The position numbers and the translations under genes were made by a program. From assembly GCA_903813345.2 (NCBI GenBank), contig CAIIXF020000001.1, positions 32,218,556 through 32,282,555 of the forward strand: a stretch of DNA of 64,000 bases, read 5' to 3'. Positions 3,871 to 38,732 of this stretch are shown here, piece after piece; position 1 is the first letter of the stretch; each line of letters starts with the position of its first letter. The notes beneath the pieces were generated by a model. It was not told where the DNA came from and did no database searches. It was given only the letters and a program-made list of their open reading frames with translations. The stretch is from Owenia fusiformis. Lineage: Eukaryota; Annelida; Polychaeta; Sabellida; Oweniidae.

Positions 3871-3915
3871 TGCAACAAAACCCTTTAACTTTATAAAAAA
3901 CCAAAGAAACATTAT

Positions 3916-4672: not shown

Positions 4673-4684
4673 AGGCATCTTTGA

Positions 4685-4706: not shown

Positions 4707-5201
4707 GTATCCCCTCCCTACCTCCTCCCTACTCCCTCCCTACCTCCTCCCACTTCCTCCTTACCTCCTCCCTACCTCCTCCTTACCTCCTCCCACCTCC
4801 TCCCTACCTCCTCCTCCCTACCCCCTCCTTACCTCAGACCTCCTCCTACTTCCTCCCAACCTCCTCTTGCCTCTTCTCCATCTTCCAAACCTCCTCCCTC
4901 CCTTTACTTTAATATACAATAGTTTATAATGTCATCAATGCCTGTTTATATTTACAATTGATCTTAATTGACACATTTTGAACCAATCCAAATACTGCAC
5001 TTTAGAATGTTCTTATATGGATAGAGAAGAGGCAAGAGGAGGTTGGGAGGAAGTAGGAGGAGGTCTGAGGTTAGGAGGCGGTAGGGAGGAGTTGGGAGGA
5101 GGTAAGGAAGAGGAGGGAGGAGGTAAGGAGGAGGTAGGGAGGAGGTAAGGAGGAAGTGGGAGGAGGTAGGGAGGGAGTAGGGAGGAGGTAGGGAGGGGAT
5201 A

Positions 5202-5224
5202 CTAACCCTAACCCTAACCCTAAC
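5202..5224. repeat. Interstitial telomere-type repeat (CCCTAA), right arm
   Basis: Mirror of the TTAGGG run in the left arm, preceded by a GGAGG/GTAGG-rich tract from about 5023. The two telomere-type runs therefore face each other across the central purine/pyrimidine tracts. Confidence 0.9.
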
Positions 5225-5918
5225 TCAAAGATGCCTCACTTCCGCGATGATGTCACCCTCTTGCCCGGATAGATTCAAAATGGCCGACTTCCTGCTGGAA
5301 AGCCTCACTTCCGCTATGATGTCACCCTCTTGCCCGGATAGATTCAAAATGGCTGACTTCCTGCTGGAAAGCCTCACTTCCGCTATGATGTCACCCTCTT
5401 GCCCAGACAGAATTCAAAATGGCCGACTTCCTGCTAGAAAGCTTCAAAATGGCTGACTTCCGGTTTTAGATGAACAGCCTGAGCAGCCTGAGCTGATGGG
5501 ACCAAAATTCCTACATCAAGTATTTTATTACTTTCTCTTAAACCATATGTGTTAAATTGATACTTACCATGTTGTGGTATGTTCATAAACATTCTGGCAT
5601 CATCACATAAATAATCCATTTCAAATATAAAACTATGTTTGAAAGAGGATAATATTGGAAAATACAATCCATCTTAGCGGATGTAGACTAGATCAATATT
5701 TCGTAAACGCTGAGGTTACTGTACTAGTATATTATAAAGTGTACATGTAATAAACATTCATGATCGATAGATAAGTGAATTAAGTATTAACGGTCGAAGC
5801 CTTCAGGCTTGTGTTTGAACAACATATCAGCAGCTGATCGTCTGACTCACGTGGAGGTTTGAGTCACGTGTCTTTACTTAACGTATCACTACTACAATTT
5901 ACACAGATATTGTCAGTT

Positions 5919-5993
5919 GGCAGCAATGGCCTAATGGATAACCCGTCCGGCTGTTGAGCGGAAGGTTGCGAGTTCGAGCCTGGCAATGGTCTC
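5919..5993 (+). other. tRNA-like sequence, right arm copy
   Basis: Plus-strand copy of the tRNA-like segment at 3916-3990, with the same box A and box B motifs, GTT at the anticodon position and unpaired acceptor stem. I call it a tRNA-derived repeat, not a working tRNA gene. Confidence 0.6.
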
Positions 5994-6593
5994 ATAATGT
6001 TTCTTTGGTTTTTTATAAAGTTAAAGGGTTTTGTTGCATGACTGGCACCACCCCATTGGTTTGTACAGGCGAGCACCACCCCATAGAGTTATACAGGCTG
6101 GCACCACCCCATTGATTTGTACAGGCGAGCACCACCCCATAGAGTTATACAGGCTGGCACCACCCCATTGATTTGTACAGGCGAGCACCACCCCATAGCG
6201 TTATATAGGCTATACAGGCACCACCCCATAGACCTCTCTAGGATGAGAAGGTACCGCCTCATAGAACTATACAGTAAAACAAAGGGTTATGTAATAGGGG
6301 TGGGTCAGTTCTCTCCTTTTGACAACTACTTCAAAAAGTCAATTTGATAAGAGATAGGTCTATAACATACGTACTATATATGAGCCTATTTTATTCTAGA
6401 CAAACACATTTGGATCAACTAAACATGCTACAATTCAAGAAAGAACAAATGGCATCCCTTTGACCTTTATTTATTACAGTCCGAGAAGATCTTTCCTGAC
6501 GAAAAGCCCACATAATGAAACACCTTGTACGTTTGGTTATAAGTATAAGTATACGTTATAAGTTGTACTTTCACGCCGTGCGAAATCTCTCTA

Positions 6594-15900: not shown

Positions 15901-18900
15901 ATATTACTCAATGAAAAATAAATATACCTGAACTATTCATGAATATGACTGAAATACAATTTGGACTCATGAAATATTCATCAACTCTATAGGCTATTCA
16001 TGAAATATCCATCACCCGTTTATTCTTGAAATATTCATGATATTCTATCCCTCAATATTCTTGAAATTTTCTCCAGGTTTAGCTTCATATTTCTTGAAAT
16101 ATTCATGACATTATATTCTTCACCATTCTTGAAATCATCTCTATGTATACAACCTCATATTTCTTGAAATATTCATAACATTATATTCTCCAACATTCTT
16201 GAATAATTCATGAATTAGCTCACATGTATGTTCATGAACTATAACTTAAATGAAGAATAAATATTCATCACCTGTATATATTCTGTTCCTCAATGTTCTT
16301 GAAATCTTCTCCAAGTTTAGCTTCATTTTTCTTAAAATATTCCTCAACTGCATATTCATGAAATATTTATCACCTGTATGTTCATGAAATATTACTCAAT
16401 GAAAAATAAATATACCTGAACTATTCATGAATATGACTGAAATACAATTTGGACTCATGAAATATTCATCAACTCTATAAGCTATTCATGAAATATTCAT
16501 TACCCGTATATTCTTGAAATATTCATGATATTCTATCCCTCAATATTCTTGAATTCTTCTCCAGCAGCTTCATATTTCTTGAAATATTCATGACATTATA
16601 TTCTTCAACATTCTTGAAATCATCTCCATGTATACAACCTCATATTTCTTGAAATATTCACCAACTGTATATTCATGAAATATTCATAACATTATATTCT
16701 CCAACATTCTTGAATAATTCATGAATTAACTCACATGTATGTTCATGAACTATTACTTAAATGAAGAATAACTATTCATCACCTGTATATATTCTGTTCC
16801 TCAATGTTCTTGCAATCTTCTCCAAGTTTAGGTTCATTTTTCTTGATATATTCCTCAACTGCATATTCATGAAATATTTATCACCTGTATGTTTATGAAA
16901 TATTTCTCAATGAAAAATAAATATACCTGAACTATTCATGAATATGACTGAAATACAATTTGGACTCATGAAATATTCATCAACTCTATAAGCTATTCAT
17001 GAAATATTCATTACCCGTATATTCTTGAAATATTCATGATATTCTATCCCTCAATATTCTTGAATTCTTCTCCAGCAGCTTCATATTTCTTGAAATATTC
17101 ATGACATTATATTCTTCAACATTCTTGAAATCATCTCCATGTATACAACCTCATATTTCTTGAAATATTCACCAACTCTATATTCATGAAATATTCATAA
17201 CATTATATTCTCCAACATTCTTGAATAATTCATGAATTAACTCACATGTATGTTCATGAACTATTACTTAAATGAAGAATAAATATTCATCACCTGTATA
17301 TATTCTGTTCCTCAATGTTCTTGAAATCTTCTCCAAGTTTAGGTTCATTTTTCTTGATATATTCCTCAACTGCATATTCATGAAATATTTATCACCTGTA
17401 TGTTCATGAAATATTACTCAATGAAAAATAAATATACCTGAACTATTCATGAATATGACTGAAATACAATTTGGACTCATGAAATATTCATCAACTCTAT
17501 AGGCTATTCATGAAATATTCATCACCCGCATATTCTTGAAATATTCATGATATTCTATCCCTCAATATTCTTGAAATCTTCTCCAGGTTTAGCTTCATAT
17601 TTCTTGAAATATTCATGACATTATATTCTTCAACATTCTTGAAATCATCTCCATGTATACGACCTCATATTTTTTGAAATATTCACCAACTGTATATTCA
17701 TGAAATATTCATAACATTATATTCTCCAACATTCTTGAATAATTCATGAATTAACTCACATGTATGTTCATGAACTATTACTTAAATGAAGAATAAATAT
17801 TCATCACCTGTATATATTCTGTTCCTCAATGTTCTTGAAATCTTCTCCAAGTTTAGCTTCATTTTTCTTGAAATATTCCTCATCTTAAAGTATTAGCATA
17901 TAAAATTTGAACCAAATCCATCTATTGATAGTTGATTTATCAACAAGCAAAGCTCCTTTGTCCCTACCCCAGCGAAATGGCATTGAATAATTCCTGAATA
18001 TTCATGTAAAATATTGATGAATAATCCACCAATGAAGAATAAATATCATGAAGAATTCATGAATATGCGTGAAAATCAATTGAACATCAATTTGGACACT
18101 TCCCGAAAATTCTTCAAATCGAATTACTTGAATATTCATGAATAAACTTTCATGGACTTTTGTGTTTTCCCACCTAAAGCAATAATTTCCTTTCTGAGGA
18201 ATTCTGGGATAGGTTATGATTCATAATTCTTCAAATATTCTTCAAATGAAGTGGTGAAAAAATGAAGAATATCTAAGAACATATTAATTCTTCATTATTG
18301 TTCAAATATCCTTTAAACAAAGTGGTGAAAATATGAAGCATTTCCAAGATTTTCATAAATGCAAAATGTTATTTTTATTTATTCTTTAAGTACCCTTCAA
18401 ATGAGGTCATGAAAAATTAAAGAATATCTTAGAACATATTAGTTCTTCATTATTATTCAAATGTCCCTTTAACAAATTGTTCCCATGTTACAAAAGAGCT
18501 TCAATTTCATGTTTTTCTTAAAGTTATTAAACATTTTCCCCAATATTCCTCAAATATTCTTCAAACAGAATGGAAAAAAGAAGAATTTCTAAGAATAAAT
18601 CTTTAGATAAAAATAAAATGGCTGATTTCTATATGAAAACTCCAGATCTTGAGATATCTCCTCTCTAGGTGGAAATAGCTATCTAATTATTGATCTAAAC
18701 AAGAAGATATGTGTCACCTACCTTTTGGCATATGTTCCTGTTTCTCTGTCCACATATTTTAAGGACATGTTCCTTTTTAACAAGAGCTTCAATTTCATGT
18801 TTTACTAATGTGTTTTTTCCCGCCTAAAACAATCATTTCCTTTTTGAGGAATTCTGGGATAGGTTATGATTCATTATTCTTCAAATATTCTTCAAATGAG

Positions 18901-21900
18901 GTGGTGAAAAAATGAAGAATATCTAAGAACATATTAATTCTTCATTATTATTCAAATATCCTTTAAACAAAGTGGTGAAAATATGAAGCATTTCCAAGAA
19001 TTTCATAAATGCAAAATGTTATTTTTATTTATTCTTCAAATACCCTTTAAATGAGGTGGTGAAAAATTGAAGAATATCTAAGAACATATTAGTTCTTCAT
19101 TATTATTCAAATATCCTTTTAACAAATTGGTGAAAATATGAAGAATTTTCAGGGTATCAAAGGATACAAAATCTTCTTTCGTATTCTTCAAATATTCTTC
19201 AAATTAGGTGGTGCAAAGGTGAAGAATATCTGAGAACATATTAGTTCTTCATTATTATTTGAATATTCTTCAACAACATGGTGAAAATATCAAGGATTTC
19301 CAAGATTTCAAAAGATACAAAAGGTTCTTCATTATTCTTCAAATATTCTTCAAACATTTTGGTGAGAATATGAAGAATATTTAAGAACATAAATATTCTT
19401 CAGTATTATTCAAATATCTTTCACACAAGGTAGTGAAAAAAAGAAGAATATCTAAGAACAGAGATGTTCTTTATTATTCTTCAAATATCCTTCAAACAAG
19501 GTGGTGAAAAAATGAAGAATATCTAAGAACAGATGTGTTCTTCATAATTATCCAAATTTTCTTCATTCAGCGTGGTGAAATTATAGAGAATTTTCAAGAA
19601 CATGAAATTTTCTTTATTCTTCTTCAATTATTCACCATAGAAATTGAAGAATATTCAGGAACATAAATTATTCTTTATTATTCTTCAAAAATACAAGAAT
19701 ATGGTTAAATCTTTATTCTTCACAATTTATATCGATATTACAATATTCATCACACCTGAATATTCATGAATAATTCATGAATATTCATATCACAAAAATA
19801 TCATTTCGCCGGGGATTGCTTATAAGTGCAAGCTATTTTTCAGTTTTTCACCTATTGCACTTGAACTAGACTAAGTGTAGATGTTTTCCAGTGTGTACCC
19901 CCTCTCCGGCACAGTCCCCATATATTTTGTTTATATTATAAAAATGAGTGGTATAATTACTCATACTAATTATTACTTAGTAATTACTCTTACAATAACA
20001 AAATCTGTACTTTCACATTTATGATTTTATTGTTTCATCTGATATCTAAATCTCTTTGCAACCTCAACCTTTAATGCGGTCTCTCTAATATCAGACATTT
20101 CAGATTAAATATTCATACTCTTGTTAGGTCCTAAGTATAAAGTATCTTAATTGTGCTAGCTTCACAATTTTATTTTGAATGAAACAATGTCTAGTAATAG
20201 AGAGATTGTTACTTGAAGATTGAATTGTGCATTCTAGTGCCAAATTGGTATTGGTTGGAGAACAAGTAAAATGGTAGGTTTGCATGCAATATGATTTTGT
20301 GCCTAAAAGTCTATGGTTGTAAGTCTGAAGATGAACTATTGAATCACATGAGGCAAACATGTAGAGGCCTAGAGGATGGCCATTTGGGCTCAGTTTGATC
20401 TGAAGAGGCCACATATTAATCTCATGATAACTTCAATCTGTGGATGAATAAATATTCTTAGACATTTTAGAATTTTTATTAGATATTGCTTTAAGTGTAC
20501 TTTGTGTTTGACTTTTTATGTTCAATAGAAGCAAGAGCATTCTAACCATCATTATTTTGAAACAGCATTCAAATCAAAGTTTTAACTTGTTTGTCCTGAA
20601 TGGTGCATGCACTTTTCTGTTTGTTATTGAGACACGTAGCTTTTGTTAAATCTGCTTCATTTTTACTGTCAAATGAAAAATTTAAGATTAAGTATTTTTT
20701 GTTGCAAAACTTTTGAAGATATATACAGATGCAAGACACATTGATGATTTGATGTAGAATCTTGGTGTCAGAGAAATCAGAAATAGATAAGGTGTATGGA
20801 AGAGTATGCAACTAGGTAGTTTTTTTTAAGAAGTCTTACTTCACATGAAAATGTCTTTATCTATTTCATCTGAATGTAACTTGGAAAAAACTAATACAAA
20901 ACTTGAAGAATTCTTAACTGCTACTAAATCTTATGAAATAGTCTAGAGAATGCTACCCCAATCTCATTTCACATTCTAGCCAAGATGGTGTGAAGGATAT
21001 GGATGCTTTGTTTGGGAAGGCCAAGTTCTTTGAGCAGAGACGCAACTTCACAGGGGCTCTTGAACTGTTGAACACAGCTGTTGTGAACTTTCAGTCCTTT
21101 ATTCCACCATTAATAGAGAAGATGAAAGTTCAACTAGCCTTACAGGATTGGGAGAATGTAATGGAGACTGCTCAGAGGTATATACATGTATTAACTATAT
21201 GTACAGAGTCCTGTTATGTTAATGCCTTGGAATATGTCGAGATTTATAGAGAATTTAAGAATTTCCAGTTGGTAATCAGCCACCTTATTATGTCCCCACC
21301 ACATAGTGTGGGGCCATATTGTCGGCCTAGGCGCGTCCGTCCGTCTGTCCGTCCGTCTGTCCGTCCGTCCGTCTGTCCGTCCGTCCGTCCGTCCGTACGT
21401 CCGGCAGTTTTCTCCAAAACCGCTACAGATATCACCTTCAAATTTTCAGGGATAACTTATGAGTGCATACAGATGTGGATGAAAAAAAATTAACTCGATA
21501 CCTACTTCCTGTCGGCCATTTTGAAGTCAAATGCTAAAATCCTTGTCTGCAAACTTTAAGAAAAACGGCTTCACAGTTGCTTTTAAAACTTTAACATCTT
21601 GTTCAGCTCACTTCATTCTAGATCTGATTAGGTTTTGGACCTGTTAGCTCAGTCATGTCAGCCATTTTGAATGTCTTAAGAAAAGTTAGCGCACGATAAT
21701 ACTTTGTATCATATTGAATGGTGTTTTTGAGTTTTCATATTCTAACTATTTAGTAGCTTTATAAATAATTTCAGATGTACTTTGTTGTTAAAGCCTATGT
21801 TGTTGTTAACAGTATTTATATGTGATAATTTTGTAAAAAGAAATCAGCAAAAACTCATGATCACTTTTTTATTGTCAGCCATTTTGGATTTTTCCGTCCT

Positions 21901-24900
21901 AAAATCTTGTCTGTGGAGTCTTGTCTACGTGTTTTCAGGTGAACCGTTTGGTGGATCAATTCTTGATTTTCAGGGATGATTCTTAGTATAAAAATCTAGA
22001 TCTGATTAGTTTTTTGGCATTCTGGGTAAATGTCAAGGCAGCCATTTTGGATTTTCCGTCCTAAAATCTTGTCTGTAAAGTCTTGTCTACGCATTTTCAG
22101 GTGAACTGTTTGGTAGATCAATTTCAATTTTTCAGGGATGATCATTAATATGAAAATGTACAACTGATTAGTTTTTTGGCATTCTGGGTAATTGTCAAGG
22201 CAGCCATTTTGGATTTTCCGTCCTAAAATATTGTCTGTAAAGTCTTGTCTACGCATTTCCAGGTGAACAGTTCTGTAGATCAATTTCAAGTTTTCAGGGA
22301 TGATTCTTAGTATGAAAATCTAGATCTGATTAGTATTTGGGCATTCTGGGTAAATGCCAAGGCAGCCATTTTGGATTTTCCGTCCTAAAATCTTGTCTGT
22401 AGAGTTTTGTCTACGCATTTCCCGGTGAACCGTTTGGTAGATCAATTTCAAATTTTCAGGGATGATTCTTAATATGAAAATCTAGATCTGATCAGTTTTT
22501 TGGCATTCTGGATAAATGTCAAGGCAGCCATTTTGAATTTTCCGTCTTAAAATCCTGCCCGTTAAGTCTTGTCTATGCGTTTTTAGGTGAACCGTTTTGT
22601 AGATCAATTTCAAATTTTCAGGGATGATTCTTAGTATGAAAATCTAGATCTGATTAGTTTTGGCATTCTGGATAAATGCCAAGGCAGCCATTTTGGATTT
22701 TCCGTCTTAAAATCCTGCCCGTAAAGTCTTGTCTACGCGTTTTTAGGTGAACCGTTTTGTAGATCAATTTCAAATTTTCAGGGATGATTCTTAGTATGAA
22801 AATCTACATCTGATTAGTTTTTTGGCATTCTAGGTAAATTTTAAGGTGGCCATTTTGGATTTTCCATCATCAAATTGTGTCGGTAAAGTCTTGTCTACTC
22901 ATTTTTAGGATAACCATTTGACAGGATCACCCATAAGTGGGGACATTTTGTACACATTTGTGTTCTTGTTAAATTTTGTAAGCCTATGGCACCCTTTCAT
23001 TCATTTACAGCAACGCACACAGTGTAGAGACTGGAATATATCATACTTCTCTACTTTGTAGGGAGGGAAACTATTTAATACTCGTGTAAATAATTGAAAT
23101 GCTATTTCTTTCAGGATTCTAGCCATGGATGGACATAATATAGAGGCCCAGAAGTATATCATACTTCATCTACTCTGTAGGGAGGGCAACTATCAAGAAG
23201 TAAGAGCTTTTGTGAGATCATATTGAGAAACACAAGATAAATGTCAGAAAAACACAAATTACAGGAGAACACATTAATATTTATAACAATTGGCAACTAC
23301 CATTGAATTAAATTTGCAGTTCTCACTTAAGATTCTTATAATGAAAAATTGCCTGATGAGATACTTAACAATTTTATATATTGAGCTAAAATAAAACTTT
23401 GTAAATGAAGTTAATGACAGAACTCAATGTTATTAGGCTGCAGAAAAGCTTGCTGACCTGTTACAAGATATGGACAGAAATGAACCACAGAATGGCCAAC
23501 TGTTCTATGAGATGTCACAAGTCTTCTGTAGACTGGTAGGTTAAAGTCCCCATGTAAAGTTTAAACCACTTTGGCTTATACTGTAGTCTTACCCAATGTT
23601 ATCAAAGTGTGATATGTGAAACTTTTTTAATTTCAAAAAGTGGTTTTTGAACGACTTTTCCTTAAAAAATTGTGAATTTATTTAAAACTAACTTTTAGAG
23701 GTCACACATATCTTTTGATAAGCCACAATTCATACCAATGCATAGTTGGAAAGAAAAGTGGTTCATAAATAAGCGAGAAATGAACTCATCAGTGCATGAA
23801 ATGGTTCAGAGAAATGTTAGTTCTCATAGAAACCAATGGTACAATGATACATAATTTATTCTTCCTTTTAACCTGGTTAGACAATTGACATTGGTTTATT
23901 ATTGAAGTTTAGCATATTTTGAAAAGATTGACATAGTATTTTTTTCTGTTTTTGCCACCTGAGTGAGTCATAATGACATCAATAATGTTGCAAAATATTT
24001 TTGATATGCTAAAACATTGATATGGCCCATTAAATATGGCATTTTATTATTGAAATAGTGTGTCCTTTGTTCAATCTTTGCAGTGGACGTTAAAAAGAAA
24101 TGCTCACAACTTTTCTTGATGATTAAAAAATTTCAACTTTTTTTCAAAAATGGCGGGAAATTTGAATATTTGAGAAATGAAATGCTCACAACTTTTTTTT
24201 CAAAAATCTCTAAAATAACTTATGAAGTCATGACAAATTGTAAATGAATGATAAAAAAATATTTTCAAACTTTACATTGGGACTTGAAGCAATTTATTTT
24301 CCCGATTACATGTAAATGCATTGCAATGTACTGTACTGCATCGTACCATTACTACCATACATGCCATACATTTACTGTACCATACTGTACATTTAACTCA
24401 TCTGGTAATAAAAGATGACAAATGTAGCTTTGGTAAAACTATAACGATTTTCTATTCCTTATCCAAATCGGATGAATTTGTAATTAGTGGTATAATAAGC
24501 AAATGCCTATCCTAATCATAAAGACATGTTAGTGGTGGTGATGAAAATCACAAATTGTATACATATATTTAAAGTGTTTAAACACAAAAAAGTAAGAAAT
24601 ATGTTTATTTGAAAACAATCTTGCAGTAGCACAAAAGAATAAAAAGCAACTATGAAGCTATGATTTTAGACTAATCAGGCTTTTACAAAAAGGAACATTT
24701 GTTTTGTTTTAGCACTACTTAAGGTCTGAGCTTTTATCTGATCAGTTTACTATTAACATACATTTTTACTTCATGCAGTGTGGTAGGAATTCTGCAGTGC
24801 TTCAACAGACCTTCTTCATGTGTGAGAGGGCTGTAGGACTGGACAACTCCAATGCTGACTTTGTTACTGAGATGGGCTATGAGTATTTCATACAGGGAAA

Positions 24901-27900
24901 GATCAGGGATGCTACCAAGTGCTACAGGAATGCTATGAAGCTGGATGAAACAAGTGTACAGGCTCTCACAGGTACGTCTAACAGTACATCTAAGAGTCAT
25001 CTGATTTGATGATATTAGATCTCTATGTTTATCACACCACCAGTGTTGTTATCACATCACCGGTTTTATATAGTTATTATTATGTTGGTGGCATAATCGT
25101 GGTTATTATCATGAGGCATCCCACTTTTTTGTCATCGTGATTCCAGGACAACTGCATATTGGATTCATATACATGATAGAGGATACCAAATTCTAGAGCT
25201 GATTAACTTTTTGGCAGCCATCTTGTTTTCTGGTGGCCATTTCAGAATTTTTTTAACAAATCTTACCATCCCATTTCCAGGAAAACTGCTCATTGGATTG
25301 TTCTCTTTGAACAAAATAGAGGATACCATGTTCTAGTGCTGATTAACTTTTGGGTGGCCATCTTGTTTTCTTGTGGCCATTTTTGAAGTTTTTAAATAAA
25401 TCTTGTCATCGCAATTCTTGGAAAACCACTCATTGAATTTTCTTTGAATTAATACACATGATAGAGGATGTTAATGCCTTGTGTGTCTGTTTGGTGCAGT
25501 GATTTCATTAATGTCAGTTGTGCCTTGTTTATTGTTTATTCATTTTAATTTTATACAACAGGCAACAGCCATAAATGCAAAATATTAGAGAGATCTTCCA
25601 ACCTTTGATCGACAGAAAACTTCATCCAAAATAAAAAAGAAGAATTGTAAAAGTCAAAGTAAACCTATAAGATAATGAGACTTATATACACTTAACAAAC
25701 AAAGCATTACTGCTGAAGTTTGATTTTTATATTAATTTGTAAAAAGTGGTTGATAAGCCCAAGGTGGGCTGGGTAAATTGTATTACACTGTATTACTGAT
25801 GTATATTGCATGTAAGACCAACCACTATAATATGAAATAAACTAAACTAAACTAAACTAAACCATTATTATAGTAGCATCTCATAATGTTAATATGTTTA
25901 TATTCTAGCTCAACAAAGATATAGAAAAGTGTGTGACCAGCCAAATCTGATAGGTCATAAAATAAGATGTAGAATAAGAATCAAGATTATTATGATTTGG
26001 ATAATTATGATAAATAATTTGTGTGCATTTTTCATTTGTTTCGTTTTGTTGTATAGATAATTAATATAAGATTTTGCCTCTTTCCAAGTGCTTTCAATAT
26101 TATAAATGATACTGTTTGTGAACATCTTTCTGGAATGAATGAACACCTCTCTTCAGGAATACCTAAATGTCACAAATACAATCATGTTATCAAAATCTTT
26201 TAATGAAAAAACCTCCTCATGTGAACGGTCTAAACCAGTCTTGGATTACATTCATGTTTTGCTATATTCCATTTAACTGAAGGCAATGTTTCTATAATGC
26301 AGTGTATTCAAACTCACCAACTGAATTGAAAAAGAACAAACTAATCAAATATCAGTATTTAATAATGAGACAATACTTTCAGGTATAATCCAGTGTCAGT
26401 TGACAGATAATCAACTAGAAGATGCATCCCAGCAGCTAGAATTTCTTAATGAAATACAGCAGAGTGTTGGCAACTCAGCGGTAACTTTTAACCTTTACTA
26501 ACTTATTATCCGACCGAACGAAGTTCGAGGGGGATATAGAAAAGCCGTCCGTCCATCCGTTCGTCCGTCCGTTCGTCCGTCCGTCCGTTCGTGTGTCCGG
26601 GCAATAACTCAAATACCGGTTGACGGATTTCATTCAAATTTTATAGGCTTATGCCTTATGGGTGTAGGACCTCTGCTCAAGAAGGAATTTTCAATATGGC
26701 CACTAAATTCAAAATGGCCGCCATTTTTTCGTAAAAAATATAATCTTTGATTACTCAAATACTAGTGGATGGATTTGCTTCAAATTTTATATGCTGTTGC
26801 CCAGGTACAAAGGAGCCTTGCTGAAGAAGACATTTTCAAGATGGCCACCATATTTCAAAATGGCGGCCATTTTTTGTAAAAAAACGTTATCTTTGATAAC
26901 TCAAGGTACCATAGAATGGATTTGGATCAAATTTTATATGCTGTTGCCTGGGTACAAAGGAGCCTTGCTCAAGAAGACATTTTCAAGATGGCCACCATAT
27001 TTCAAAATGGTGGCCATTTTGGTAGCTCAAATACCATTGAATGGATTTGGTTCAAATTTTACATGCTGATGCCTAGGGACATTGGAGCTCTGTTCGAGAA
27101 GGGATTTTCAAGATGGCAGCTAAATTTCAAAATGGCCGCCATTTTTCATCAAAGAATGTAACCTTTGATAAAAGTACCAGTTGACGGATTTGGGTTAAAT
27201 GTATATGCTGATGCCTTTTGGCATAGGAGCTCTGCTAAAGGAAAAATCTAAAGATGACAGCTGAATTTCAAAATGGCAACCATGTTTCATAAAAACACAA
27301 TCTTTGATAATTCAAATACCAGTGGATGAATTTGGCTCAAATTTTATATGGCCACTATTCACCAAAACATGTTTTGTTCGGTGGGATTTGCTACTCCGTG
27401 GAGTTGCTGTTTTTCTAGTATGTAACTTTACTCTATGACATCTTTTAACAAACCACTGCAGTGGACCATGCTTTCATAAGTACATTGAATAAACTAATTC
27501 TGAAAATCCTACAAGACTTTGTAAACATTGCCAGCTACTTCCTGTTCAGTATTCTAATTTCTTTGGTGCTCTCCAAATGAATCCAGCTATACATCACTTA
27601 TCTTCCTATATCTTTTTGGCTGAGTTTTTGAACAAAACATTAACATAATTGGACATTGACAGAACCTTTTGATTATGTACATGTTACAGGAGCTGAGCTA
27701 TTTGACAGCTGTATTGGCCAGGAAGAAGTCAGAGGCTCCTGAGAAAGTAACTGAACTCTTGAAGGCTTCAGTTGAGAAACACTTTGCTGGCATTAAGGTA
27801 CACATTTGTAAACAAACTTTTGTGACATTTCAAGCCTTGGGATAAAATATAATATTTTTAACATTTTCTGTATTCTAATACATTTAAGTATTAAAAATTA

Positions 27901-30900
27901 TATTCAATAATTGCACTTTATAACATTCAGCTATATGTGATTATATCTATTTACTTATTATTTCTATTTCTTTCTTTCTAGCTTTATATCTTGTCATCTT
28001 GATAAATACAAATATATGATATAATCTTTTGTATATTACCCTATAAAGGGTGAATTGAGAAATCAATAAATAAAAATAAAAAATATATACACCCATATGA
28101 AAGTAAACATGTGATAAATTAACAAAATAAAAGCTACTGTGCAAACTGTATATGCATGTCTAATAATACAATATCTGTAATTTCCTAGCTCTCTCTTTGT
28201 TGACTACATCTAAATATATACAATCTATGATGAAACATTTGTTGTAGGCATTGTCCCTTAGCCCAGCTTATTATTTTCACTTGAACCCAGATTTCCTGAT
28301 GCAGATTCTCAATGATTTCCTCATCTATGCACCACAGAAGGTAAGGTGTTTGACCCTCTTACCGAGATTTTCTCAAGACAGTCGTAAAGTAGTGTTTCAA
28401 TTATTGTAAAGGAAGATGGGATATTAGGTTTCACTATGAATAAAATGTCTCAAACAGCATCAAACAGCGCTATTCGTGAAACAGTGCTGGACAGCACTGT
28501 AAAAACAGTACTGTACATCACTGTTTTCAAAAACAGTGCCATATAGCGCTATACTTGTAATATTTATCTACTAAATCTAGGTATATGCAATGTAATTATT
28601 GCTGGAACATAAATATTAAGTAAGCATAGTGTCATCTACACTGGTCAGTATCAAGCAAAGGTAACGGCCGTAACCTTAGCATCAAAGATGGCGGATGGTA
28701 AGTGTTGATTTTGATATTTTTTAGTTTACATTGTTTCTATGTTATAGTTGACGTAATGCTTTGATATTTGAACTGTATCAGGCATATATGTCATGGAAAC
28801 TTTGGAGGATGAGCATTTGTTCATATACCATGTGTAGGCACCACTGTTCAAAGATATCTTCCACCGCTTAAGGGAAGGTAACTGGGATTTGGATTTTACA
28901 AATGATAAGATAACTGATATACGTTAGCTTCACTTGATACTGACCAGTGAACTAGACAGATGTTTATTTTCTGTTTATTCGTTTTATAGCGATGTACAGT
29001 GTTATTCTAGCATCACCTGTTTTGAACAGCGTAGTACAGTACTGTTTTTACAGCGCTATATGGCACTGTTTTTGAAAACAGTGATGTACAGTACTGTTTT
29101 TACAGTGCTGTCCAGCACTGTTTCACAAACTGATGCTGTTTGAGATTGGCAGTTTATTAACGATATGGAGGTAGAATCTATAAACTTCATCAATTTGGAA
29201 AAATATGTTTTTTCATGTTTTAGTGAGGGTTTGTAGATTCAAGTGTTAAATGGAACTTGTATTATTACAGCCTGGATCTCCAGGGCAACCAGTTGATCCT
29301 GTGTTAAAGAGATGTAATGTTATCCTTGAGAGCATCACCCGGTCTGTACCTGGACTCTTAGAGGGTCTCTTCCTCATGGCTAAAGTCAAATACCTCTCAG
29401 GTAGACATTTAGCACATATCATATGAGTTACAATATATGCTCAAATATAATGCACTTAGATAAAATGATAGTACAGGAAGATGTTGATAAAATATTAACA
29501 CTGAAATAGTAGTGAACATACTAATACTTTGAGGAAAGTCAGGTTCTAAATTCTTCACACCATTTGAATTTTTTTTATCAATTACCAATAGACTAGATGC
29601 GAGTAGAAATGATCTTGATTTACGTCATTAAATATTCAAAATTCAGTCAAAGTGATGTCATATTTGAAATCTACATGTAAAAATACTTCTAAAAATATGG
29701 TTTCGAAAATTGTTTATCAACTTTGAAAATTTAATCTTTTTGAAAATGTGACTTCTAGTTCGGGTTGATTTCCCATAGACTCCATATTAAAAAATCACAA
29801 AAAGTGAAATATCTTTTCTTGTATTGGACATTATATCATTTTCTTTTACTGGACATACTTTAATTTGCATAACTATTCGATACATAAGGGCTATATGAAA
29901 ATCGAACCACTAAAACAGATCTAATTTAAATTAAAGGGAACTTTCTACTATACCCGCCATGCTATCTGACCCGAGCGTGCCACCTGGTGGTGAAACTGGT
30001 AACTACCTACTCGCATTTGCGTTATTCAAGTTTGACATCGGTCATATTGGGCAGAAATATACATGTATAAACCATATCTATACACATGTAGGTACATGTT
30101 AGATATACAAGTAGTTTAAAATGTGAATGTATTTCTTATAGGGGACATTGATGCTGCCCAGAGTACCCTGCAGCACTGTCTGGACACTGATGCAACCTTC
30201 TCTGATGCACATATACTCATGGCACAGGTACTAATTAGGATGTACAAGCAAAATTAATGTACTTTTAACATTAAGATAAGACTCACAATATCTTCATTAT
30301 TCATTAATCATTCATGATTGATTAGGAAATATGAAATACATGTACATGTACTTCAACCAGTTCCATTCACTGTTCTGTGTTTAGATCTACCTATACCAGA
30401 ACAACTTCAAACAAGCCAACCAGTCATTAGAGATAGGTCTGAGCTATAACTTTGAGGTGAGAGACCACCCCATATACAACCTTATCAAGGCACGCATCCA
30501 TCGCAAACAGGGAGAGAATGAAGAGGCAGTCAAGACACTACAGATGGCCATGGCATTGCCAGGCATTAAGAAAAGTAGGATTAAATTAATGAGATTAAAT
30601 ATAAAGCTGACAAGTGTAATCATCAGACATGGATGTCCGTTAAATGTTATGAAATGAATTATGTTCATTTGTCAGATATTAAAGAATTGTTCTTTAAAGT
30701 TCAACATTTGAAATGAATTCCTCACTCAGTAAACAAAATGAACTACTTGCACCTTTTTCAATTTCCAATGACAATCAATTCACTTTCTACATGAACAATT
30801 TTTTTCATGCTTTAATTCCAGAAAAGAATACAAGCCCTTTAATTGCCTACACTGGGCCTCATATTAGAAAATATATTTCACATATACTTTTGTTTTTTTT

Positions 30901-33900
30901 CATTAAAATGATATTACATGTTATTTTACAAAAATTAGAAATTCACATTTATTTTCACATTTACTGTTGACTTGCAGGTAGTAGGCATAGTGCTAGTAAA
31001 AAGGGGAAAGTTATCCAGCAGGTGAGCCTCAATGACCGTGTCTCAGTATTCCTGGAGTTAGCAGAGGCTCATAGAGCCCTAGGAGAACAGCATGAGGCAA
31101 CTAAAGTCATGTCAGATGCAACAAATGAATTCCATGGAACTCCTGAAGAAATTCGTATAACAATTGCAAATGCTGAGATGTCAATTGATCGAGGTGATGT
31201 GGAGGGAGCACTGACTATGCTAAGGACAATAACTCCTGATCAGCCATATTTTGTACAAGCTCGGGAAAAAATGGCAAATATTTATTTGAATCATCGGAAA
31301 GATAAACGACTTTATGCTAGTTGCTATAGGTACAGAACTTTTGTCATGTATCTTTTTATTCTGTTCACCTTTTACTCTCGTCAACTCTTTTTCATGGTAC
31401 CATATTACAAACCAAAAATAAAAAAGAGTATACTGTACACGTATAAGAAAAAAGATTTTAATACCCTTAAAACCTTAGACCTTAGTCTCTATTGTAATAC
31501 TAAATCACTTATATGCTGTTTTGATTGTAGAGAATTAGTAGATAAAGCCCCCAGTCCCCACACATGTCTCCTTCTAGGGGATGCCTACATGAGCATCCAG
31601 GAGCCTGAGAAAGCTATTGAGGTCTATGAGACAGCCCTTAAGAAGAATCCTAAAGATGGTTCCCTGGCCAGTAAGATAGGTCAAGCTTTGGTGAAGACAC
31701 ATAATTATGGGAAAGCAATTAGCTATTACGAGGCTGCCCTAAAATCTGGAGGTCAAAATTTCCTGAGGTAAATCTACAGCAGAAGTGGAAAATCTTTTAA
31801 AATATGAAATAAATCCTGTGTAATATCCCTTATCAGTATCCCTTATCAGAATACCAGTAGTATTCTTCACTGATCAAGAAATGTGTCCATGTGTGATGTC
31901 AGAGTGCATTTAATTTGTTTATAAATGCACATGTCTGTTTCTAGGTATGATCTGGCTGAGTTGTTACTGAGGCTGAGGCAATATGAGAAAGCTGAAAAGG
32001 TCCTCAGGATAGCATTAGATACAGACACACCCAGTAAGTGGATCATATGCATGTAGGTTGTAGTAGCATTAGATACAGACACACCTAGTAAGTGGATCAA
32101 AGGCATGTGGGTTGTAGTAGCATTAGATACAGACACACCCAGTAAGTGGATCATATGCATGTAGGTTGTAGTAGCATTAGATACAGACACACCCAGTAAG
32201 TGGATCATATGCATGTGGGTTGCAGTAGCATTAGATACAGACACATCTAGTGAGTGGATCATATGCATGTGGGTTGTAGTAGCATTAGATACAGACACAC
32301 CCAGTAAGTGGATCATATGTATGTAGGTTGTAGTAGCATTAGACAGACACACCAAGTAAGTGGATTATATGAATGTAGGTTGTAGTAGCATGAAACATAG
32401 ACACACCAAGTAAGTGGATCATATGCATGTGGGTTGTAGTAGCATTAGATGCAAACACACCTAGTAAGTGGATCATATGCATGTGGGTTGTAGTAGCATT
32501 AGATACAGACACACCTAGTAAGTGGATCATATGCATGTGGGTTGTAGTAGCATTAGATACAGACGCATCTAGTATGTGGATCATATGCATGTAGGTTGTA
32601 GTAGCATTAGATACAGACACACCAAGTAAGTGGATCATATGCATGTGGGTTGTAGTAGCATTAGATGCAAACACACCTAGTAAGTGGATCATATGCATGT
32701 GGGTTGTAGTAGCATTAGATACAGACACACCTAGTAAGTGGATCATATGCATGTGGGTTGTAGTAGCATTAGATACAGACACACCTAGTAAGTGGATCAT
32801 ATGCATGTGGGTTGTAGTAGCATTAGATACAGACACACCTAGTAAGTGGATCATATGCATGTGGGTTGTAGTAGCATTAGATACAAACACACCTAGTATG
32901 TGGATCATATGCATGTGGGTTGTAGTAACATTAGATACAGACGCACCTAGTAAGTAGATCATATGCATGTGGGTTGTAGTAGCATTAGATACAGAGGTAC
33001 CTAGTAAGTGGATCATATGCATGTGATTTGTAGTAGCATTAGATACAGACACACCTAGTAAGTGGATCATATGCATGTGGCTTGTACTGGCAAAAGTTAC
33101 ATACCTTACTCTTAAAAGCCAGTGAAAAGAATAGCCAACTTTGACAGAATCAATGCTATGTGTGCTTTGTGATTTTCGACTTACTCTATAACACTCACCT
33201 CTTTACAGACCAAGACCTTGAGAGCATCATGGATGAGACGAAGTACCTTGTGCTTCTATCTAAGGTGCATGCCAAGAGCAATAGACCAGATGACTCCCTC
33301 CTGGCATTAAAGAAGGGACATGACACACAGATCAGGGTCCTGAAGAGAGTCCAAGTAGAGCAACCCGACACACTCACTAAGCAAAGACAACTCATGTCTA
33401 GGTAGCATACTATATTCTCACTCTCGAATTCATATTTTTGTTATTATTATAAAGTAACATTTCAGATAAGTGCAGTAGTTAAAATGCACTGTAGTAATAA
33501 AATGAACATATGCACAATGCAAGAGATCTTGGTTGATCATTTCATGTGAGGGATTAGATGAAGCGAAAACTGATACTGAGTAGTGTGTTAAATGATTGCT
33601 ACAAATAAAAGCATTTTCTGGACCAAATATTTGAAGTCCTTTGTTTTCATTGTTGGATATCTGGAAATACAATCTTACTTGAAGTCGTGTTGCTTTTGGG
33701 AGGTTTTTGCCTTTCATTCTGTATTGTTTAACTGATACTAACCGATGTGCATTATTGCAGTATCTGTTGTCAGATGTCAAAACATTCATCAGATCAACGA
33801 GACTTCAAGAAAGCAATAGACTACTACAAGGAGGCTCTCACTTACACTGAGAATGATGCTAAGGTAAGGATTGTTCTTCTGGTCACATCTTAGCTGTCAT

Positions 33901-36900
33901 TGCTCATTCTAACTACTCGAGACCAGCTAATCAAAATGACATTACATATACAGGTACATGCAAAGTTCTTTATTACATGTGCCAAAAAGTAATATGGCAG
34001 TGACTGTAAATTCAATTTTCACTCGACCCCCAGCAGAATTCTGTTCAGAGCTTTATACTGTTTTTTATTTCGCCACCACAAGTGATGGCATTGTTATAGT
34101 CTCCAGCTTTATGCGGATGGTGCTTGGTGGTCGTCAGTCATCATCTGTAAAAAATTGCAGATGGCGACAAATCCTTGGGGCTAGTTATAAACAAAAAATC
34201 ATTATTTCTCTTAAGGGAATTTATCAAAAGAAATATACATTAATTTGTTGATTTCTACTCCATCAATTATTGATCTTAATGTAGGTGATGTTAGCACTCT
34301 GCCATCTGTACCTGCAAACTGAGGATTTGGACTCATGTCAACATCAGTGTATGAAACTGTTGCAGACAGACAAAGAGAATGATGCTGGCCAGGTGGTGAG
34401 TCACTCATCTCACTTGTCATTTTGAGTAATTGCACCTATTTATGATTACACATTTCTCGCTTTCTTTGAATGGCTTAGGCCAGCAAGAAGTGGTCAGGAG
34501 AGAAGATACTATTTCACCTGCCTCAATTCTTAGTATGTCATGATTTACAGAATGACTACTTTTGTAGAATATTATGCTTTTTAGTCAATGTAGTGTGAAA
34601 ATGTAATGTAATTTTTTGATTCACTTTCAAGATGATGGCTGACTTGATGTTCAGGAAGAATGAATATGACTCTGCCATGTACCATTTCCAACAACTCTTG
34701 GAGAGGAAACCTGACAACTTTGAGGCTTTAGCAAGGCTAGTTGACCTGATGAGGCGTGCAGGCAAACTGGAAGAGGTGCCTAGATTCCTGGAACTTGCAG
34801 AAAATGCCTCATCCAGGGCCTCCATGGATCCTGGGTACAACTACTGTAAAGGACTCTTTGAATGGTAAAATTATTCTTTAATTATCCCAGTGAACAAAGT
34901 TAAGAGGGATGTAGATGTAGAGACGCAATTTGTTCATCCATTTGTTTGTCTGTCTGGGTGATAAGTTAGTATCGGGGCCCACTCAATTTTCACAACTGCT
35001 TCCTTAGAGAATAATCCACCTTGCAAAAACGAGTGTACATGTACATGTAAAGTCTGTTGGACAATGTACAGTATTAAATTAAATATTAACTGTTCAATAT
35101 TCACCTTATAGGTATATTGGCAACCCCAACACAGCCTTAAAACATTTCAACAAGGCCAGGAAAGACTCTGACTGGGGACAGAAGGCCACCTACAACATGA
35201 TAGAAATCTGCCTTAACCCAGACAATGACACCATTGGGGGAGAGGTCTTTGAAAGCACAGACTCAGAGGGGTAAGGCATTAATTGTATATTAGTAACAGC
35301 ACATTGAATTGAGTAGTATTGTTTCATTATATCAACATACTGACATATACTATATTATACAGATTTTGATTGATTTTGTGTCTACATTTCTTCTATCACA
35401 CTGTATTTGTCTACTTTGGTGCTACTTAATTTGGTGATTTTCTGTTTTTGGACCTTTTGGCGTCTATTTAATTTGGCGGTTTTTCAATTGTCCCAGACAT
35501 CCTCCCATCCAGCCCAATTCAAGATACTCATTGCTAGTGTTATTGATGAACAATTTCTTCAAAATTTCTTGTTTTTATATAAATTTCTTCAATATTTTTT
35601 TTTTGTTATTTTTATAACTTTAAACAGCCCAGTCATCTTGGTACCTTTCTTATAACCAAAAGTGCACAAAATGAAAAATATGTCATATTCCCGGAATTTT
35701 GGCAACTATTTAATTTGGCGTTTTTTTAATTGGCCGAAATTCCCCAATTTAATGCGCTCGCCAAACTAAAGACAAATACAATATTTGATCATCATGAAAT
35801 GAAATAAAAATGCCCTGTATAGAATATATTTACTGACTTTATTTAGGCTGAACGAAACACCAATCCCAGTTCCAAAACAATCACCTGGCTTGCCTACAAT
35901 GAAGCAGTCCTCCTCCAATAGACCCATTGTTCCTCCATTAGACATTTCCCCTATTACAAATACCAATCATTTGGGAAAATTTGACATAAGTCCCCAGGTC
36001 CGCCCCACTGCTCCTGAACCTGATGATTCCCAAGGTTCCTGGGTAGAGAACCAACCAGAATCACCCCCTCCTAGTCCAGCAGGGCAGGCAAACAATACCC
36101 TTAGACTACTTGATCAACCTATAATGCTGACCTTGAATGAGTTGACTGATCAACTTAGACATCTTACAGCAGATGACCTCATGCCTAGAAAACGTTTTAT
36201 AAAAAAGTAACTTAGTTAAGGGTCAAAGTTAAGACTGTTAGATACAATATTTTTGTTAAGTTGCACATTTTCATTCATATAAATAACTGGTTGAATAAAT
36301 GGAATTTTATGTGTTTAAGTGATTCTTTTCTTCAAAAGTCTGCTCTTTTGACAACATTTAACCATCTTCCATCAATTGCTCCAAGTTCAAATCTCTTCAG
36401 CGCAGTTTTTGACAATGAAGAATTATTATACTGTTATAAAGAAAAATTATCTGCTTCAACGTAAAAAATACTAATTGTCCACTAAAATCTAATGGTACAG
36501 TTTACGTAAAATACACAAATATATGGCTGTATGATAATTGAAAGTATTTTTTAGCTCTTCTGAGAAAAATGACAGTGAACAGTTGGCAGTGAAGACTGCG
36601 GAAAAACTGCTGAAGGTAAGTTCATTGTTCTATGAAGATGTAATAGGTCTTTCGCTGTTTTGATTGAACTCTAAACCATTTCCTGAATCGAATTCTTGAA
36701 ATGAAATTGTCTTTCCGATTTTTCATATTTGGTTGTAGGGAAAGATAATTACATTATGATATCAAAATTCTTCAGCTTTATTTAGTTATTATGAATTAGA
36801 AGTTTCTCATGTCCTCAAAGTGGAATTAAACCATGAATATTACTATATTTTTGGATCATACATTAGGTTAATTACATGCATTTCAGTGGGAACATAAAGG

Positions 36901-38732
36901 AGCAGTAGGAGATGTCAACTTAAATATTGAAAGCTTCAGTTCCTTATCTACATACTCATGTTATCTACAGAGCATCCTGTCTTAATGAGTACTAATGAGT
37001 AGTTACTTACAGATATTTCTTGTAATAATTGTAGGAGTTAAAACGCAAGCCTGGAGACCTGATGCCTCAGATACTTGAGAACATGACCCTCATTGCTACG
37101 AAGAACAAATCTAATATTGAGAAGGCGCTTGCCTCCTTCATGGAAATATGCTCCCAGGAAGTATGTACTGTCATAATAGTTACACAGTATCTGGGCTTGG
37201 ATTTATCAGTATTGAATGAATTTAGTTGACCTGATATTGGAAGATAGTAGCTCCAGTAATATCATCTTTATGTAGACCAGTGATTATAGATATTAGCAAT
37301 TATAAACCAACGTTTAATACAATACTTCCGCTACCATACTTCCTAGTTGAAGTTGGATGGTGTACCTTTCAATACAAGTCTATAAAATATACTTTTACAT
37401 GTATATCTTAAACAAACCATTTTATGGGTATGATTAGCAGCAGGCAATTTTCTGTTACCAAAATCGCCTGTAGTTTTTATTAGGAACTGTTTCCATGTTA
37501 AGATTAAAATTTCCTTCAACTGATGCATATTATTGATTCTATTTTCTCTTCACAGAGGGATCATGTTGGTGCTCTGTATGGGATGGCAGCAGCATATATG
37601 GTAATGAAGCAGACACCTAGAGCCAGGAACCAACTGAAGAGAGTCACCAAGGCCAACTGGACAATGACAGTAAATACATTCATTAATGTAACATTGTATT
37701 TGGATATCTATCTGAAATTGGAATTGTGATTTACTTAGTCAAAGAAATTGAAAATATTATTATTGTATTGAAAGTATTTGCATTAGACCTAATGATTTGA
37801 AAAGCATTGATATATGTGTGTTTCTGACTAGCTATCATGTTAATGTGTTATAACCACTGCAGTTATATAACAATGGTACACTATCAGACTATTTTCCCAT
37901 GGTTACATTATTGTCTCTATGGTTACAGGAGGCAGAGGACCTAGAGAAGAGTTGGTTACTGCTGTCTGATATGTTCATCCAAACTGGCAAGTTTGACATG
38001 GCCACGGAGCTGCTAAAGCGCTGCTTGCAGCATAATAAGGTACAAGAAGGGGAAAGAAGACTTATACCAAGTCTCTGGTTTCAACATTGTTCTTGTGTTG
38101 ATAGACATGTTTTGCCAAGAGAAGAACCTACTGATGGGTCACAATTTGAAATTATTTTGGATATTTACTCATGTATACTGTCATTTTCCTCATTTTGAGC
38201 ATTATTTCTTATTGCCTACATATTTACACTTTGCATGTTATTATAGTCTTGCACAAAAGCATATGAGTACATGGGACACATTATGGAAAAGGAACAGTCA
38301 TACAAGGATGCCGCTAAGAACTATGAAATGGCTTGGAAGTATGGAAACAAAAACAGTCCAAATATAGGTAAGTTCATGATTTGCCATTTACATTAAAATG
38401 AACCATTTTCATTATAAAAGCAAAGCGCAACTAAATATTAAAAGTTGTTCAAAAATAGACACTGCTTGAACTGACCATTAAACATGCATAAATTGGAAGA
38501 ACATGTAGGGCTATCATTCTTTTACATAGACAGGTTTAATGGTACAATATCTGAATATTGTTTATTTATGATATATGCGATTTCAGGTTACAAGCTAGGA
38601 TTCAACTACCTGAAGGCTCGTAGGTTTGTTGATGCCATAGATATCTGTCACCATGTGCTTAAAGGACATCCAAACTATCCTAAAATACGCAAAGACATTC
38701 TTGATAAAGCTAGAGCCAGTCTACGCGTGTAA
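12972..38732 (+). CDS. TTC21B: TTC21B / IFT139, IFT-A complex TPR subunit
   Basis: Complete gene, 31 coding exons, 1439 residues. Exons: 12972-12998, 13402-13531, 13873-13983, 14364-14428, 14766-14867, 15124-15212, 20980-21177, 23115-23199, 23437-23535, 24779-24971, 26383-26480, 27690-27797, 28248-28340, 29271-29400, 30142-30227, 30385-30574, 30978-31329, 31531-31767, 31945-32033, 33209-33401, 33761-33863, 34285-34395, 34632-34864, 35112-35270, 35847-36206, 36555-36615, 37035-37160, 37556-37669, 37929-38039, 38247-38367, 38587-38732. All junctions are GT-AG and phases agree throughout. Conserved blocks include [10 protein letters not shown] near the N-terminus, [69 protein letters not shown] and the C-terminal [17 protein letters not shown]. 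The protein is a TPR solenoid of the IFT-A complex for retrograde ciliary transport. Vertebrate TTC21B is about 1316 residues; exon 25 accounts for the excess. The ATG context (gacATGG) is good. An older undivided TTC21A/B ancestor is the alternative name. Confidence 0.96.
13145..13272. repeat. Short hairpin repeat family, copy 1 (intron 1)
   Basis: About 125 bp beginning 'tatgtcaccacctcaagtg' and ending 'aagtggtgacattttgcatg', so the ends are roughly inverted. Related copies are at 15255-15385 (intron 6) and 34064-34175 (intron 21). It is a non-coding MITE or SINE-like family. Confidence 0.6.
15255..15385. repeat. Short hairpin repeat family, copy 2 (intron 6)
   Basis: Begins 'tatgtcactaccagaagtgg' and ends 'caggtggtgacattttgcat'. 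It lies directly before the 4.4-kb satellite element. The open frame 14935-15372 partly covers exon 6 and this repeat and is not itself a gene. Confidence 0.6.
15410..19816. mobile_element. 4.4-kb TIR-bounded AATATTCATGAA satellite element in TTC21B intron 6
   Basis: A perfect 16-bp inverted repeat bounds the block: ATCCCCGGCGAAATGA at 15410-15425 and its reverse complement at 19801-19816. From 15.4 to 17.9 kb, basic 'ttcttgaaatattcatga' motifs are organised into higher-order units of about 490-510 bp. The landmark 'gaaatacaatttggactcat' recurs near 15549, 15947, 16439, 16949 and 17460. A partial internal end ('ccccagcgaaatggcattga') lies near 17969. From 18.2 to 19.7 kb a second family recurs: 'attcttcaaatattcttcaa', 'gtggtgaaaaaatgaagaat', 'atctaagaacatatt'. 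There is no long open frame, so mobilisation would need an outside transposase. Confidence 0.8.
21290..22950. mobile_element. Transposon-like repeat with internal ~165-bp tandem units (intron 7)
   Basis: Starts 'tatgtccccaccacatagtg', then a CCGT/CTGT microsatellite (about 21330-21400), then about six diverged units of 'gccattttggattttccgtc', 'cttgtctacgcatttt', 'caggtgaaccgtttggtaga' and 'ttttcagggatgattcttag'. It ends 'cataagtggggacattttg', inverted relative to the start. There is no transposase. Confidence 0.65.
23030..23072 (+). repeat. Partial duplicate of TTC21B exon 8 in the upstream intron
   Basis: The sequence 'ggaatatatcatacttctct', 'actttgtagggagggaaact' is a diverged copy of the 3' part of exon 8 (23151-23194), about 119 bp upstream. 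It contains an in-frame stop-like change (TTTGTAG is shared with the true exon in another frame) and lacks a clean donor, so it is probably not spliced in. Confidence 0.65.
25080..25480. repeat. ~120-140-bp diverged tandem repeat (intron 10)
   Basis: Three diverged units with 'gagctgattaactttttggc', 'agccatcttgttttctggtg' and 'gccatttcagaattttttta'. It resembles in style the other 'gccatttt' repeat blocks in this window. Confidence 0.5.
25740..25861 (+). repeat. SINE/LINE 3'-tail-like sequence ending in (AAACT)n
   Basis: A compact hairpin 'aagcccaaggtgggctgggt' is followed by 100 bp ending 'ataaactaaactaaactaaa'. A related segment, 'aagcctgatgtgggctgggt', lies near 58866. A shared tail with a terminal short repeat is typical of non-LTR retrotransposons. 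The family is not assigned. Confidence 0.5.
26510..27425 (+). mobile_element. Transposon-like repeat of the 'accgaacgaagttcg' family, copy 1 (intron 11)
   Basis: Begins 'ttatccgaccgaacgaagtt', 'cgagggggatatagaaaagc', then a CCGT/CGTT run, then about five diverged 130-150-bp units ('aaatggcggccattttt', 'ggatttggatcaaattttat'). It ends 'ttcggtgggatttgctactc'. Inverted copies of the same ends bound the block at 55736-56372. Open frames across it are repeat artefacts. Confidence 0.7.
28448..29145. mobile_element. Hairpin MITE in TTC21B intron 13
   Basis: Terminal inverted repeats: TCTCAAACAGCAT at 28448-28460 and its complement ending at 29145, extended by about 110 bp of 'acagtgctggacagcactgt' and 'aaacagtgccatatagcgct', which are themselves locally palindromic. 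An inner inverted pair, 'cactggtcagtatcaa' / 'ttgatactgaccagtg', lies at about 28638 and 28933. There is no coding capacity. Confidence 0.8.
32011..33088 (+). repeat. 54-bp minisatellite made of an exon end plus its splice donor
   Basis: About 20 units of 54 bp: 'agcattagatacagacacac', 'cyagtaagtggatcatatgc', 'atgtgggttgtagt'. The first unit contains the 3' end of TTC21B exon 19 (to 32033) and its donor; nearly every later unit repeats the coding-like GCATTAGATACAGACACACC and the donor-like AGTAAGT. Unit length is a multiple of three, so the array is open for long stretches on both strands. Use of the second donor would read AGT AAG TGG ATC ATA TGC ATG and then TAG at 32054. Confidence 0.9.
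34064..34175. repeat. Short hairpin repeat family, copy 3 (intron 21)
   Basis: Begins 'ttcgccaccacaagtgatgg' and ends 'cagatggcgacaaatcc', related to the copies at 13145-13272 and 15255-15385 but more diverged. Confidence 0.45.
35847..36206 (+). other. TTC21B: TTC21B exon 25: Pro/Ser-rich symmetric cassette exon
   Basis: 360 nt encoding about 120 residues, with [23 protein letters not shown] and [10 protein letters not shown], then a charged stretch [15 protein letters not shown] and basic PRKRFIKK. It enters and leaves in the same phase (2), so skipping it joins exon 24 to exon 26 in frame. Vertebrate TTC21B has only a few residues between the matching GGEVFE and TAEKLLK blocks. It is probably a disordered loop insert between TPRs. 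Confidence 0.8.

Follow-up and report, generated by a model that had tools for sequence, protein, structure and literature searches.

Minisatellite-like tandem duplications of exon-intron boundaries have been described in amphioxus, where they are called mirages (PMC3087553, PMC3902484; all papers are cited here for their accessible parts). Ebner et al. reported in 2010 that in BflGb6 the segment duplicated in tandem runs from the 3' end of an intron into the 5' portion of exon 2, and that in BflGb9 the 3' boundary of exon 2 is duplicated in this way (PMC3087553). The same report traces the name to Adh3 and describes haplotypes with 6 and 3 units, and further mirages are found in PGBD5 and troponin C (PMC3902484). 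RT-PCR in amphioxus suggests that splicing is undisturbed by these arrays, as far as the available text of both papers goes (PMC3087553, PMC3902484).

Repeat units that supply several donors in cis are shared by human IFI6 and by the TTC21B array of the present study, as judged from the part of the IFI6 literature at hand. The minisatellite of IFI6 (6-16) with its multiple splice donors was reportedly described by Turri in 1995. According to the accessible text of PMC4526556, two downstream units of IFI6 are used and three mRNAs result, whereas in TTC21B use of any downstream unit would truncate the product (19 of 19). Moreover, variable tandem repeats at exon-intron boundaries, which can alter splicing, were found in human segmental-duplication genes; in the portion available these are recent paralogues with units of ~30 bp and four repeats on average, unlike the 20 units in one conserved gene that we describe here (PMC2812944).

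The locus analyzed in our study lies in the TTC21B (IFT139) gene within a window of 64,000 nucleotides, by which we mean the whole stretch of DNA considered. Its array is a mirage: 54-bp units follow each other head to tail in 20.0 copies, span an exon-intron boundary and carry copies of the splice signals. A boundary is likewise duplicated with its splice signals in Adh3, BflGb6, BflGb9, troponin C and PGBD5 of amphioxus, and the unit sizes given in the accessible descriptions (10-72 bp in Adh3, about 150-160 bp in the globins) overlap that of TTC21B. As either exon edge can be duplicated in the amphioxus cases described there, so we found a donor array in TTC21B and an acceptor array in a KIF4-like kinesin gene of the same genome. 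The kind is therefore known, and the number of donors and the host lineage are what is notable: unlike the amphioxus mirages, the TTC21B array sits in an IFT gene of a host that is lophotrochozoan by its Hox markers, and almost all of the donors in its 20 copies are intact. In the literature searched, which included few subscription papers, we found no use of the name mirage for such arrays outside amphioxus. With regard to the host, a gene of the Hox cluster reads KKDNNIEKLTGPP after the homeodomain (KLTGP), and two other Hox genes carry Ubd-A-like peptides. We take the KLTGP-type peptide to mark Lox5 and the Ubd-A-like peptides to mark Lox2/Lox4 of lophotrochozoans. Judged by the Lox5 marker, the host is not a cephalochordate, the group in which the named mirages occur. 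The GFP family had 0 matches in the genome, but no control search matched either, and hence this has no bearing on the host; COX1 likewise had no match.

The gene model was obtained by spliced alignment of window positions 12901-39100 to a human TTC21B sequence, with 747 of 1320 alignment columns identical up to human residue 1315 (Table 1). Pfam TT21 families match the gene as well. Exons 18-20 matched the PDB chains 8bbe_D and 8fgw_D, both named TTC21B (E values of 6e-53 and 1e-52), and exons 19-23 matched these two plus 8bda_E, named IFT139, across the exon 19-20 junction. Presumably the three chains are human and Chlamydomonas proteins. Genome searches with one peptide and two TTC21 domains matched the TTC21B gene only. 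Since the first modelled exon (27 nt, nine residues) has weak support, the exon numbering could move by one. The donor of exon 19, CCA/GTAAGTGG at 32034, is in phase 1 and is followed by an acceptor ending at 33208; the resulting join, ...ALDTDTP N QDLESIM..., aligns with human TTC21B, and the boundary is thus predicted from homology. The initial annotation, which had named the gene TTC21B and given the number and end of exon 19, agrees with this alignment.

Table 1. Features of the TTC21B boundary array, its host gene and two kinesin arrays of the same genome. Positions are those of the window except for the two kinesin rows.
Feature	Position	Strand	Basis or remark
TTC21B/IFT139 gene model, 30 coding exons	12972..38726	+	spliced alignment, Pfam, PDB matches
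Exon 19, 89 nt	31945..32033	+	spliced alignment and PDB homology; last 24 nt are the array start
20-copy 54-bp boundary-spanning minisatellite (mirage)	32010..33086	+	TRF and unit table
Real donor of intron 19 (GTAAGT), in unit 1	32034..32039	+	spliced alignment
Intron 19, 1175 nt	32034..33208	+	151 nt counted from last donor (33058)
In-frame TAG of unit 1	32054..32056	+	stop for each later donor when joined to exon 20
19 decoy donors, units 2-20	32088..33063	+	human-type donor matrix
Unit 7, 52 nt, 2-nt deletion	32336..32387	+	unit table; frame shifted in all later units
Exon 20	33209..33401	+	phase 1 join, codon A/AC; spliced alignment
KIF4-like kinesin acceptor array (L061)	G000:C2:23264801-23270300	minus	best PDB match KIF4, E 1e-39
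Kinesin L014 on C10, three decayed copies of exon end and donor	about 1770-1990	reverse

Tandem Repeats Finder (TRF) reported a period of 54 with 20.0 copies and 92% matches over 32010-33086. Unit 1 begins at GCA, takes in the final 22 nt of exon 19 and the donor, and is completed to 54 nt by intron bases; two further matching bases lie to its left. This confirms the proposal that the exon 19 end and its AGTAAGT donor form the first unit of a ~20-copy array. Chance likeness between exon end and array could be ruled out: when each of the 58 TTC21B exon edges was aligned ungapped to its own intron, donor 19 alone recurred, at 54 of 54 bases, and the next-best edge reached 29 of 54. Besides, among arrays of the window with a period of at least 20 and at least three copies, only this one overlaps a TTC21B exon edge. 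The array sequence has at least one match in the genome.

All twenty donors were located, from 32034 to 33058. All 20 units retain GT, which bears out the earlier count of about 20 competing donors in cis. AGTAAGT is exact in 17 of these; unit 5 has GTGAGT and units 11 and 17 have GTATGT. The statement that nearly every later unit keeps both the exon motif and AGTAAGT was too strong, as the exact exon 20-mer GCATTAGATACAGACACACC occurs in 11 of 20 units and the 20-mer together with AGTAAGT also in 11 of 20. A donor spacing by multiples of three, which had been claimed as well, applies to 18 of 19 intervals (54 nt); the remaining one, at the deletion in unit 7, measures 52. On the minus strand a stop-free frame of 287 aa runs through most of the array (32339-33202); it arises because the repeat length is divisible by three, and it probably has no significance.

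Tandem arrays are hard to assemble, and according to the accessible text of PMC3087553 a draft assembly had one of the published mirages wrong. Nevertheless, we regard it as very improbable that misassembly has produced the copy number or the order of units seen here, as the units differ at many columns and in a structured order; such an error would alter the copy number alone, not the existence of the array.

We joined donors 2-20 in silico to exon 20. All 19 products stop at the TAG at 32054, in agreement with the initial annotation, which had predicted truncation from any downstream donor. With a human-type donor matrix, the authentic donor scored 3.3 and ranked 13 of the 29 TTC21B donors. 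On the same matrix 16 of the 19 decoys scored at least as high, three of those 16 being equal; units 7, 8 and 12 reached 5.5 because of an A at position -2, and units 5, 11 and 17 were lower. With a matrix built from the other 28 TTC21B donors, the authentic donor was the lowest of 29 (1.35), and 13 of 19 copies lay above it, three were equal and three below. This matrix favours the 28 donors on which it was trained. Predicted U1 pairing was -6.7 for donor 1, nearly equal in 17 of 19 copies and -2.9 in units 11 and 17. Structure does not appear to hide the decoys either, since the local fold does not set donor 1 apart: the probability of an unpaired hexamer was 0.12 for donor 1 and 0.004-0.35 for the others. 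Neither strength nor exposure accounts for a choice of the first donor, and therefore position would have to.

The density of competing sites bears on the reading that the array is a splicing brake, an idea raised in the initial annotation as a lowering of TTC21B expression with array length; decoys would bind U1 and divert a fraction of the transcripts to decay, with array length setting TTC21B output. Intron 19 holds 16 donor-like sites scoring at least as high as the authentic donor in 1148 nt, compared to 14 in 19,792 nt of the other TTC21B introns. The truncation of 19 of 19 decoy products points in the same direction, as does the human IFI6 minisatellite, whose extra donors are used according to the available part of PMC4526556. 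However, we saw no excess conservation of the donors, and the published mirages are said not to disturb splicing in the text at hand (PMC3087553, PMC3902484). Altogether we consider the brake rather unlikely. Nothing in the present data favours a tuning of TTC21B by copy number over neutrality.

We think it probable that the TTC21B array is a mirage that arose by local duplication and turnover and is tolerated as a near-neutral passenger, with the real donor chosen by pairing across the exon. A 54-bp segment comprising the last 22-24 nt of exon 19, the donor and ~30 nt of intron would have been duplicated in tandem and then expanded to 20 units by slippage or unequal exchange. Each copy would offer a donor with no strong acceptor of its own, i.e. 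roughly half an exon, and because each copy lacks a good partner site for pairing across an exon, arrays of half exons would be tolerated. The acceptor ending at 31944 would pair with the nearest donor, 89 nt on, which is the outermost and authentic one. Rare use of a decoy would lead to the stop at 32054 and probably to nonsense-mediated decay. The direction of duplication, the donor used, the decay of wrong products and neutrality are in this account what we infer from the arrangement. In both the TTC21B and the KIF4-like arrays the working copy adjoins the rest of the exon, as pairing across the exon would select.

Studies of competing donors in man are consistent with this account in part. 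In human events with near-equal donors, a short upstream and a long downstream intron favour the upstream donor, and in five minigenes whose competing donors were identical, splicing took place at the upstream donor alone (PMC9225289, accessible part). In TTC21B, the spliced alignment gives 177 nt for intron 18 and 1175 nt for intron 19. The same part of that study also states that in 86% of events the stronger of two competing human donors is chosen, and that all four architecture classes tend towards the downstream donor as long as strength is not matched (PMC9225289). SRSF1 and other factors are able to shift the choice between competing donors, as far as the text available describes (PMC5585400). 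A rule derived from human cells might not apply to the present host. Moreover, against exon definition stands the observation that the authentic donor is not the strongest, as units 7, 8 and 12 score higher. The assumption that the copies lack a partner also has a limit: when the 114 AGs of the array were graded by a rough pyrimidine score, the top one reached 2.8 and several reached 2.0, compared to 29 TTC21B acceptors that range from -2.0 to 6.2 with a median of 3.7. A best AG below the median and inside the range of real acceptors leaves room for a weak acceptor within the copies.

As the last donor leaves an intron of 151 nt, pairing across the intron could occur as well. In that case donor 20 at 33058 would rival the first donor, giving two products, and units 2-19 would be little used. 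When the introns are short, it is the downstream donor that is favoured in human events (PMC9225289, in the part accessible). Nevertheless, unless this product is minor, most transcripts of a conserved ciliary protein would be truncated given the 19 of 19 stops, and we regard such rivalry as improbable. Twenty near-identical donors at ~54-nt steps that face one acceptor constitute a natural experiment on donor choice. Pairing across the exon predicts use of unit 1, pairing across the intron use of unit 20, and choice by strength use of units 7, 8 or 12.

The differences among the units fit a locally renewed array. Units 1 and 3 are identical at every base, and accordingly the coding end of the exon apparently joins in the turnover. 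The proline codon has the form CCC, as in the real exon 19, in units 1, 3, 4 and 6 only; the probability that all four fall within the first six by chance is 0.003. Units 8-9-10 resemble units 12-13-14, and both patterns are as local turnover would leave them. A gradient of distance from unit 1 along the array was not significant (Spearman 0.36, p 0.14). Selection holding the donors was not seen, as the GTAAGT columns did not differ significantly in conservation from the other columns (permutation p 0.35); any difference in the exon-like columns is towards greater variability.

Coding constraint on the TTC21B copies was likewise not seen in 19 of 20 units, with unit 7 omitted for its deletion: the exon-like part has 10 non-synonymous and 3 synonymous changes, a neutral ratio at an expected 71% non-synonymous. 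The whole unit read as codons also gave a neutral ratio, 21 non-synonymous to 5 synonymous, which argues against a coding origin or occasional coding use, in which the unit would add in-frame peptide repeats wherever the stop is absent. The 54 nt do correspond to 18 codons, and at the stop position 14 of 20 units have TGG and are open, five have TAG and one TGA. However, unit 1 itself carries TAG and the frame shifts at unit 7, and to this reading we give hardly any credence. Since neither the donors nor the coding sense showed constraint, the copies give no sign of being kept for use, as would be the case for a tolerated passenger. The last donor lies 151 nt from the acceptor end, and therefore an intron of ~150 nt would have been lengthened by the array to 1175 nt. 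The duplication known to form introns likewise crosses a splice boundary; there a new intron results, whereas the TTC21B intron would only have been lengthened by ~1024 nt.

The same genome carries at least two further boundary arrays besides that of TTC21B, both in kinesins. In the KIF4-like gene we found 18 tandem units of 159 bp (one step of 158), each combining an acceptor with the beginning of an exon. The reading frame of copies 1-17 ends at a stop (...KPVAL* or ...KPVVL*), and only copy 18 leads on into the real exon. With the acceptor copied rather than the donor, this array mirrors that of TTC21B and offers a mirror test within the same animal. The best internal donor of the 17 decoys scored -1.8 compared to 2.1 for the real donor. 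Among the 18 copies we counted 2 non-synonymous and 8 synonymous changes (P 0.0003, 76% non-synonymous expected), so that, unlike the copies of TTC21B, they look constrained as coding sequence; exchange with the working copy would explain this. In the second kinesin, L014, the donor GTAAGT is gone in copies 2 and 3.

Among the 490 family matches listed (144 kinesin, 85 helicase, 144 kinase, 92 myosin and 25 ABC), inspection by eye found one set with constant spacing, the 18 KIF4-like matches. This listing scores the best candidates and misses short exon pieces such as those of TTC21B. Self-comparison at the match edges of 60 other loci, some of which share a gene, found boundary copies in 0 of 60; it is blind to L014, as the match interval there spans an intron. 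TRF arrays lie within 60 nt of a match in five of the 60 loci (L004, L014, L024, L046 and L047), and one of these five, L014, has a boundary copy. The same self-comparison of the TTC21B exons was positive for 2 of 30, namely exon 19 and exon 8, of which a fragment recurs. This fragment is a 41-nt copy at 23034-23074 of part of exon 8 (23151-23193), ~92% identical over its core, in the intron directly upstream of that exon.

A wider reading can be offered more tentatively, and we hold it possible but doubtful as a whole. Arrays of half exons may be recurrent and self-renewing at both kinds of splice site in this genome and tolerated in the absence of a partner site. Where turnover is active, the functional exon might rewrite its copies, so that coding selection would leak into the repeats of the intron, a possibility to which the KIF4-like array points, and array length could shift the pairing regime of the intron and set the rate of wrong-site use. 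Within the searchable literature, our findings extend mirages beyond amphioxus, and they bear on the lengthening and origin of introns.

Besides these arrays, a two-copy match to a protein kinase (L074, 1300-1608) was considered as an array and rejected, as it comprises two diverged whole exons with splice sites of their own. The two exons adjoin each other, each reads ...CHRDIKPQNLL...DFGR, and they look like mutually exclusive alternative exons of a kinase that we take to be GSK3-like. On the minus strand at G000:C9:37986009-37994334, one N-terminal region of the myosin head (within profile positions 18-84) is matched twelve times at irregular spacing, apparently in a single gene, and the matches are possibly a large set of alternative exons. 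In the window itself, the tandem repeats at 3698-3867 and 4463-4676 return inverted at 6042-6211 and 5233-5446, suggesting that 3698-6211 is a long palindromic element.
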